40,744 nt of DNA from Candidatus Aminicenantota bacterium (GTDB lineage Bacteria; Acidobacteriota; Aminicenantia; Aminicenantales; Aminicenantaceae), in NCBI GenBank assembly GCA_011049545.1, contig DRHQ01000141.1:1-40744 (forward strand), in the 5' to 3' direction. Below, one piece after another: positions 17,822 through 20,147 of the stretch. The notes under the pieces are model-generated. The model was not told the DNA's origin. It was given only the letters and a program-made list of their open reading frames with translations, and made no database searches. The first letter of the stretch is position 1. Each line of letters opens with the position of its first letter. The translations under genes and the position numbers were made by a program.

Positions 17822-18054
17822 GGGGTCAGACTTGCGGAACTTGCATAAATTGAATTCTTATTTGCTCCTTCCTAAAATTGTTTATGTTTTACTCTAACTG
17901 ATATAGGAAGCTTGGATCAGGCCTTGCCATTGGGAAAAAAGATGTTTCTCTCCCTTTGATTGCCTAAATTTCCATTTTATAAAGTCTGACCCCCCGTCTG
18001 ACTCTAACTGATAGATTAAAATTCAATTTATGCAAGTTCCGCAAGTCTGACCCC
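17822..18054. repeat. Perfect 35-base inverted repeat flanking about 163 bases
   Basis: The arm at 17822-17856 begins GGGGTCAGACTTGCGGAA and ends TTGAATT. It is matched base for base by its reverse complement at 18020-18054. The interior has a direct repeat ACTCTAACTGATA and another partial head, AGTCTGACCCC, near 17985. No transposase is encoded. The head GGGGTCAGACTTGCG recurs at 26297-26311. It resembles non-autonomous REP or MITE elements; the exact class is inferred. Confidence 0.75.
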
Positions 18055-18058
18055 GTGA

Positions 18059-18087
18059 TTGACAAAATCTTTATTAAGGAATAGATT
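18059..18087 (+). promoter_or_regulatory. Sigma70-like promoter of ktrB-ktrA
   Basis: TTGACA (18059-18064), 17-base spacer, TAGATT (18082-18087). The -35 is perfect and the -10 matches four of six. It begins four bases after the end of the inverted repeat and would start RNA about 40 bases before the proposed ATT start. Confidence 0.55.
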
Positions 18088-18120
18088 TGATATCTTAATC
18101 AAGACAAAGAGGAGGGCTTA

Positions 18121-18138
18121 AAAAGGAGGCAATCTATT
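18121..18138 (+). promoter_or_regulatory. Perfect Shine-Dalgarno before an ATT start codon
   Basis: AAAAGGAGG (18121-18129) is followed by six bases and ATT (18136-18138), in frame with ktrB. The frame is closed by a TGA at 18088-18090 and has no ATG, GTG or TTG before 18199. This decides the start of ktrB. Confidence 0.6.
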
Positions 18139-19473
18139 AAAGCAGAGAGGAGATTTCAGCCAGCTCAAGTCCTAGCTATAAGTTTTATTGTTGCCATATT
18201 GGGAGGCACCTTCCTTCTTCTTCTTCCTTTCAGTACAAAATCAGGCCATATTTCTCTCGTCGATGCTCTCTTTACAGCTACATCCGGAGTTTGTGTGACC
18301 GGTCTTATTGTCCAGGATACAGCCACGTACTTCACTCCGTTTGGCCAGGCCGTTATCCTAGTTCTGTTTCAATTGGGTGGGCTGGGAATCATGACTTTTT
18401 CGACCCTTATTCTTTTGGTTGCTGGAAAAAGAATTTCCATAAAAGACAGGATCATTATTCAGCAGGGATTTCATCATGGGGCACCTAAAGATTTCAAATC
18501 TCTCATCAAGAATATATTTTTATATACTTTGATTCTTGAGGCTGCAGGAACTCTCTCTCTTTTTCTTCGGTGGCAGCAAGACTTCCCCTGGCAAAAGGCT
18601 CTCTCTTATTCAGTTTTTCATTCCATCTCAGCTCTTTGTAATGCAGGCTTTTCTCTTTTTAGCCGCAGTTTCATTTCTTACAGAAGTGATATATGGATAA
18701 ATATCACGCTCTTTCTTCTGATAATACTCGGCGGAGTGGGATTTTTAGCCCTTCAAGAAATGAAGGAAGTCTTTTCTGGTGTTTTAAGAAGGCAGAAAAC
18801 TAAAATTTCTCTGCATACCAAGTTGGTTCTTACCCTGACTTCGTTCCTGGTGGTTTTTTCCTTCGTTCTATTTCTGGCGATTGAGTGGAATCATTCGTTA
18901 AAAATGTTCACCCTGAAAGAAAAGATTTTCTCTTCCATTTTTCAAGTTGTAACTCCTCGCACGGCCGGATTCAACACCATGGACCTGAATTCTTTAAGTT
19001 TCTCCGCTGTCCTGCTTTTAATTATGCTGATGTTTATAGGAGCCTCTTCAGGCTCAACAGGTGGAGGCATCAAAACAAGTACAATTGGAGTGATACTTGG
19101 ATTCTTGAAATCTAAAATCACGGCCAGGGATTCGGTTAATCTTTTTCACAGAACTCTACCCATGGAATCAGTCATGAAGGCCTTCACAGTCATCACCTTG
19201 GCCATGTGCGTCATTTTCTTCTCTTCTTTTATCCTCCTGCTTACGCAACCAGTGGCAAGCATGAAGGAAGCGCTTTTTGAAGTTTTTTCTGCGTTCAGCA
19301 CGGTGGGGCTTTCTCTGGGCTTAACACCAAAGCTGAGCAGCTTAGGTAAAATTGTGATCATCTTAACCATGTACATCGGGAGGATTGGTCCCTTAACCTT
19401 GTTGTATGCTTTTAGCCGTCAGAGGGCCTACGGGCGATTTGAGTATGTTGAAGAAACAGTTATGATAGGATAA
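18136..19473 (+). CDS. ktrB: Potassium uptake channel subunit KtrB/TrkH family
   Basis: 445 residues from the proposed ATT start at 18136, the usual KtrB length. The next ordinary start, TTG at 18199, would remove the sequence RFQPAQVLAISFIVAILGG, the first half of the first membrane helix. Four selectivity-filter loops are visible: ATSGVCVTGL, SALCNAGFS, TPRTAGFNT and AFSTVGLSLG, each with the key Gly, and about ten membrane spans. The protein moves potassium (often with sodium) across the inner membrane under control of the KtrA ring encoded 23 bases downstream. The single-RCK partner favours Ktr over Trk. Confidence 0.9.
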   Translation: MKAERRFQPAQVLAISFIVAILGGTFLLLLPFSTKSGHISLVDALFTATSGVCVTGLIVQDTATYFTPFGQAVILVLFQLGGLGIMTFSTLILLVAGKRISIKDRIIIQQGFHHGAPKDFKSLIKNIFLYTLILEAAGTLSLFLRWQQDFPWQKALSYSVFHSISALCNAGFSLFSRSFISYRSDIWINITLFLLIILGGVGFLALQEMKEVFSGVLRRQKTKISLHTKLVLTLTSFLVVFSFVLFLAIEWNHSLKMFTLKEKIFSSIFQVVTPRTAGFNTMDLNSLSFSAVLLLIMLMFIGASSGSTGGGIKTSTIGVILGFLKSKITARDSVNLFHRTLPMESVMKAFTVITLAMCVIFFSSFILLLTQPVASMKEALFEVFSAFSTVGLSLGLTPKLSSLGKIVIILTMYIGRIGPLTLLYAFSRQRAYGRFEYVEETVMIG

Positions 19474-19496: not shown

Positions 19497-20147
19497 ATGA
19501 AATTTGCAGTGATAGGACTTGGGAGCTTCGGATCAAACATTGCCAAAACTCTTTATGAGAAAGGAAATGAGGTCTTAGCAGTGGATGAAAATAAGGAGAA
19601 GGTTGACGAAGTCAAGAATTTTGTATCTCATGCTGTACATATGGATGCTGCTGATAAGGAAAATCTTCAGGCACTGGGAATCAAAGATATGGATGTTGTG
19701 ATCGTGAGCTCAGGTCCGGAGATGGAAGCATCTATACTCACTGTTCTTTACCTGAGTGAGATGGGGACAAAACGCATAGTGGCCAAAGCTCTGACAGAAG
19801 ATCATGCCAAAATTTTAGAATCAGTTGGGGCCACAGAGACTATCTATCCAGAGAAAGATATGGCCATTAAGACAGCTCTGAAGTTAAACTACCCTAACGT
19901 GCTGGAATACCTTCCTCTTATTTCCGGTTTTGGAATTCAGGAGATCGCACCCCCGGAAAAATTTATCGGAAAGAATTTACGAGAGCTTGATTTGAGAAAC
20001 AAGTACGGTATTCAGGTTATTGCTATCAAAGAGCTTATCCCAGAAAAAACGACTTTTATTCCTAAAGCAGATTTTATCTTAAAGGACAGTGATATTTTGG
20101 TCATTATGGGAAAACATAAACAGCTCGAAAAGATAAACGCGCAATAA
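19497..20147 (+). CDS. ktrA: Potassium uptake regulator KtrA/TrkA (RCK protein)
   Basis: 216 residues, one RCK_N and one RCK_C domain, the size of KtrA rather than the double-domain TrkA. The nucleotide site is GLGSFGSNIA at residue 7, with the acidic end of the second strand at AVDENKEKV. The RCK_C domain (about 135-215) includes FIGKNLRELDLRNKYGIQVIAI. It forms an octameric ring that binds ATP/ADP or NAD(H) and gates KtrB. A GGAGG Shine-Dalgarno precedes the ATG. Co-directional with ktrB with a 23-base gap. Confidence 0.93.
   Translation: MKFAVIGLGSFGSNIAKTLYEKGNEVLAVDENKEKVDEVKNFVSHAVHMDAADKENLQALGIKDMDVVIVSSGPEMEASILTVLYLSEMGTKRIVAKALTEDHAKILESVGATETIYPEKDMAIKTALKLNYPNVLEYLPLISGFGIQEIAPPEKFIGKNLRELDLRNKYGIQVIAIKELIPEKTTFIPKADFILKDSDILVIMGKHKQLEKINAQ

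Follow-up and report, generated by a model that had tools for sequence, protein, structure and literature searches.

A conserved ATT start codon at ktrB in Candidatus Aminicenantes, and its possible role in limiting synthesis of a potassium uptake subunit

The region described here lies in a 40,744-nucleotide stretch of DNA from a Candidatus Aminicenantota bacterium (contig DRHQ01000141.1, forward strand), hereafter the window, and holds two adjacent genes. The first, ktrB (18136..19473, + strand), encodes a TrkH-family K+ uptake subunit (PF02386, E 4.1e-54; TIGR00933 above cut-off). The second, a ktrA/trkA-like gene (19497..20147, + strand), encodes an RCK subunit (PF02254, TrkA_N; PF02080, TrkA_C) and begins with ATG behind its own Shine-Dalgarno sequence (SD). 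A TrkH domain above the curated cut-off, together with the adjoining RCK gene, identifies the pair as a KtrB/TrkH-type system.

The ktrB frame opens at 18091, directly after a TGA (18088-18090), and closes with the stop codon at 19471-19473. An SD, AAAAGGAGG, lies at 18121-18129 (+ strand; duplex energy -11.8 with the anti-SD) and is kept in congeners; it is followed by a six-base spacer, CAATCT, and an in-frame ATT at 18136-18138 (+ strand). No other ATT, ATC or ATA (ATH) codon that precedes the conserved residues in this frame has an SD. The earliest ATG, GTG or TTG in the frame is TTG 18199, and none is usable ahead of the conserved coding residues. When all frames from 18088 to 18201 are considered, these codons are limited to TTG 18188 and TTG 18191 (other frame) and TTG 18199, with none in any frame from 18090 to 18187. 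The first-pass annotation had placed the ktrB start at this ATT, citing the six-base spacing from the SD, the lack of an earlier canonical codon and a resulting KtrB of 445 amino acids, all of which direct reading of the sequence bears out. The SD is strong and well spaced; the genome contains the bare string AAAAGGAGG-N6-ATT no more often than chance would give (two matches in the 3.24 Mb, 161-contig assembly versus two for the reversed control, the other match falling within an apparent coding region), and the rarity of this string was therefore dropped as evidence. What stands above chance at ATT 18136 is its position and its conservation.

Upstream of ktrB, a consensus scan predicts a promoter, TTGACA-17-TAGATT (18059..18087, + strand; 10/12 matches). 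The scan taken alone is near chance (2 found versus 1.3 expected). In 54 of 57 loci ktrB is preceded by a promoter-like element matching at 9/12 or more, and the same hexamers occur in most of the window's family. Because this element recurs across loci, the RNA would be expected to start near 18094, giving a leader of about 40 nucleotides from the predicted promoter. A hairpin hiding the start was considered and rejected, as the predicted fold of 18094-18175 is not stronger than that of shuffled sequences (z 0.25). No Rfam model, for a riboswitch or otherwise, reached the gathering score in the window; this includes the c-di-AMP riboswitch (ydaO) that would mark a ydaO-controlled ktr operon. 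Just upstream of the promoter lies a 40-nucleotide inverted repeat (17822-17861 and 18015-18054), with arms that are 95% complementary and 153 nucleotides apart, and with ends GGGGTCAGAC/GTCTGACCCC. Among the loci examined, a 21-base arm of this repeat was seen only in the window and in loci cut from it, and other stretches of the same genome, 1.28 Mb in all, contain 26 copies of GTCTGACCCC; the repeat is possibly a MITE-like or REP-type element.

The first-pass annotation had suggested comparing the N-terminus and upstream bases among relatives, and had named a normal ATG in those relatives, with an error in the present sequence, as one outcome that would count against it. Of the four congeners, three carry ATT and one ATA, each behind the same SD, and ATT or ATA thus occurs in every one of the genus's five species; this excludes that outcome for the genus and for most of the family. 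Across the order, 94 genomes were examined, 63 had a match, and 56 full-length ktrB loci were analysable. Of these, 19 start with ATT, ATC or ATA behind a strong SD, 21 with GTG or TTG, and 16 with ATG, mostly behind a weak SD, a count that includes L022, where the sequence ATA AGC ATG makes the ATA an equally possible start. The 19 ATH loci span 11 genera in two families. Ten of these genera belong to the window's family, where ATH is found at 16 of 25 loci, and the eleventh to a sister family, at three of four. Since relatives keep ATT, ATC or ATA at this place, we accept ATT 18136 as the start of ktrB, which we regard as strongly supported by sequence comparison. The remaining nine of the 25 loci in the window's family start with ATG; the weak codon is therefore dispensable in some of its members. 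Mapped onto a quick protein tree, the ATH label changes six times in the best topology, and starred branches force three of these changes.

Several start assignments required care. In L011, L020 and L022 two or more codons are candidates for the start; the automatic rule missed L013 and, in L006, L016, L017 and L028, chose a TTG at or next to the predicted -10 element; these last four were corrected by hand. The 56 loci leave out truncated or degraded copies of ktrB (G022, G033, G025 and G029), a weak partial match in G034, second copies or distant paralogues, and a divergent copy in G062. In the degraded copy of G025 (L216, G025:C77), ATT behind AAGGAGA is kept, although most of the middle of the gene is deleted and the 3' part is out of frame; in the same genus, two further genomes gave no good match to ktrB. 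In one genus of another family, f6 (L195-L213), ktrB starts almost always with TTG or GTG (one ATG) behind AAGAGG or a similar SD, which gives this gene a further kind of weak start. Outside the order, none of 77 ktrB loci needs an ATH start, although a canonical codon could by chance hide one. Four of the 77 lack a canonical codon near the motif; their frames are open for about 125-165 codons upstream and contain canonical codons there, and they were rejected as ATH starts.

The parallel with infC drawn in the first-pass annotation holds in this genome, where infC, found separately from the open reading frame survey, starts at ATT behind TAAAGGAGGCCAATC. ATT or ATC is present at the same place in all 24 family loci parsed (of 31), often as tandem ATC ATC or ATC ATT, either codon of which may be the one used, and a few loci have a possible ATG a few codons further in. 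The gene for IF3 is present in 34 of 38 family genomes. A rough survey of 1.32 Mb of the window's genome (1,056 open reading frames of at least 100 codons, chosen by length only) found eight sites with a strong SD before an ATH or CTG codon and no canonical start within ten codons. Three of these are convincing, namely ktrB, an ATA at FTCD (glutamate formimidoyltransferase) and a CTG at an AMMECR1-type gene, with infC as a fourth; the remaining candidates were judged weak by eye. A smaller survey, of 329 kb from this genome and 400 kb from the relative G016, recovered ktrB in both, and in G016 also two sites within one repeat protein. The ATA of FTCD (L237, near 11227, G000:C12) lies behind AAAAAAGGAG. 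With five further matches set aside, 30 FTCD loci were parsed, this one and 29 others, and all 29 have ATG at that codon; the ATA, unlike the ATT of ktrB, would thus be private to this genome or an error. The AMMECR1-family gene (L263, near 2795, G000:C85) has an apparent CTG start behind AAAGGAGG.

Start codon and SD strength vary inversely at ktrB. Mean SD energy is -10.2 kcal/mol for ATH loci (n = 19), -6.1 for GTG/TTG loci (n = 21) and -3.5 for ATG loci (n = 16), and the difference between ATH and ATG has p 8e-7 when loci are compared and 2e-4 when genus means are. Phylogenetically independent contrasts on starred branches amount to only three pairs, which in most cases all point the expected way (median p 0.25). 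Where ktrB starts with ATG, its SD is weaker than that of ktrA at the same locus in 12 of 13 cases (Wilcoxon p 0.0007), the exception being L022. ktrA itself starts with ATG in 46 of 47 loci, a count from a survey that did not require M (a later ktrA pattern demanded it), and with GTG in the divergent L215. It follows from this pattern that ktrB is nearly always handicapped in one respect, through either its codon or its SD. Part of this trade-off would be expected on functional grounds, because AUH presumably works only with a strong SD and ATG genes generally tend to have weaker ones; PMC5622118 describes such compensation between codon and SD as general, with weaker SDs at ATG genes, and counts a single switch to AUU among 61,358 ancestral AUG starts, which illustrates the rarity of AUU starts.

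The position of the ktrB start, its conservation and the trade-off between codon and SD are established at the level of sequence, and the retention of ATH across many genera suggests that the cell deliberately limits the amount of this K+ channel. The explanation that we favor, and consider probable, is that the AUU start is a conserved brake, in which selection keeps a weak codon that caps initiation of KtrB relative to the AUG-started ktrA. The near-perfect SD would recruit the 30S subunit and hold it on the ktrB leader, and translation would begin at AUU 18136. The pairing of AUU with initiator tRNA would be proofread by IF3 and poorly accepted, as established elsewhere for infC and sigR (PMC5472188), so that the brake probably works through IF3 discrimination against AUH codons. 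The weak codon would then cap the rate of KtrB initiation, and since ktrA starts at AUG, the pore subunit KtrB would be scarce relative to the gating ring KtrA. KtrAB assemblies contain eight KtrA per four KtrB. The lowered KtrB output, the part played by IF3 and the purpose of the arrangement are what we infer from these patterns.

The same start could instead serve mainly for regulation, with KtrB output following IF3 activity as growth phase, stress or ionic conditions change, in the manner of infC and Streptomyces sigR. The architecture of the ktrB start is the same as that of infC in this genome, IF3 represses the GTC start of sigR (PMC5472188) and initiation at the AUA of ccpN varies with medium in S. 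aureus (PMC13009471). Set against this is the use in other families of the order of GTG/TTG, or of ATG with a weak SD, at ktrB, which would weaken initiation without IF3-specific control and makes low output look like the common denominator. The sensitivity of K+ uptake to initiation-factor levels that the first-pass annotation raised would be a plausible further step; a simpler function, in which KtrB is constitutively held down relative to KtrA, explains the trade-off at least as well. We consider regulation as the main role rather unlikely. A more elaborate form places ktrB in an IF3 regulon of Aminicenantes, with falling K+ (or a change in IF3) relaxing discrimination against AUU, raising KtrB and restoring K+. 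Were start-codon proofreading by the 30S subunit sensitive to ions, this would amount to translational K+ feedback without a riboswitch, and we rate it as quite improbable.

Neutral drift, in which ATG decayed to ATH without consequence in slow growers once a strong SD was present, would account for the several class transitions seen on the tree (six changes of label, three of them forced). Convincing ATH starts are very rare elsewhere in this genome, however, and both ktrA and the FTCD genes of relatives keep ATG. Moreover, ATG is one mutation away, yet where it is present (L009) the SD is weak. These observations make drift unlikely, a little more so than a mainly regulatory role.

The remaining alternatives concern where translation begins. 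An upstream start, through another codon, readthrough or a frameshift, would make ATT 18136 internal, and the frame is indeed open for 15 codons before it. As described above, that interval has no canonical codon in any frame, and the predicted promoter puts the RNA start near 18094. Comparison of 15 of the 19 ATH loci places the beginning of codon periodicity at the ATH codon itself: differences by codon position are 0.20, 0.13 and 0.54 downstream, and 0.61, 0.57 and 0.62 upstream, where periodicity is absent. At the ATH codon they are 0, 0 and 0.59, such that AT is invariant and the third base is as variable as silent sites (0.59 versus 0.54). In addition, the run of A before the SD differs in length by one base between the congeners L004 and L006, and L014 and L015 have an in-frame TAA directly before the SD, five codons before ATA. 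An upstream start is rejected as highly improbable. A start at TTG 18199..18201 (+ strand), which a standard open reading frame call reports as the first canonical codon, or a sequencing error at 18136, is scarcely credible, given that this TTG has no SD and, as the first-pass annotation noted, would delete half of the first membrane helix, that residues F7, P9, L13, S16 and F17 between ATT and TTG are invariant in 29 aligned loci, and that four congeners in separate assemblies also have ATT or ATA.

To our knowledge, conserved AUH starts are confined to very few bacterial genes. Our search of the open-access literature, which covered start codons at ktrB, at TrkH and in Aminicenantes, found no mention of this start; within that search neither the gene nor the lineage nor so deep a conservation seems to have a precedent, the class of mechanism being known from infC, pcnB, sigR and ccpN. 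Gene finders limited to ATG, GTG and TTG would truncate KtrB in its first membrane helix. An ATH start kept over 11 genera, with codon and SD strength inversely related, makes selection for weak initiation testable at one defined gene.

Among known systems, infC has AUU as its start in E. coli, ATC in Streptomyces (PMC5472188) and AUA in S. aureus (PMC13009471). Like ktrB, it has an AUH codon behind a strong SD, with a similar start region in this genome; in contrast, infC autoregulates, whereas KtrB is a membrane transporter. We know of no tie of KtrB to IF3. The E. coli pcnB gene, an unrelated one, reportedly has an AUU start, described by Binns and Masters in 2002, that limits synthesis, as the ktrB codon would. 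In S. aureus, cvfC1 (AUU) and ccpN (AUA) resemble ktrB in having a conserved non-canonical codon with an extended SD, and, in reporter assays in poor medium, reached about 10% of the output from AUG (PMC13009471); these were shown experimentally, whereas ktrB, in another phylum and a different gene, is known from its sequence alone. For Streptomyces sigR, which has a GTC rather than an AUH start and for which an IF3 effect was measured, PMC5472188 indicates that the weak first codon keeps SigR below RsrA, as proposed here for KtrB versus KtrA. In gene order, the locus resembles KtrAB/TrkAH K+ uptake systems, with a TrkH-type pore followed by an RCK subunit; unlike those systems elsewhere, the pore gene in much of the Aminicenantes lineage has no canonical start.
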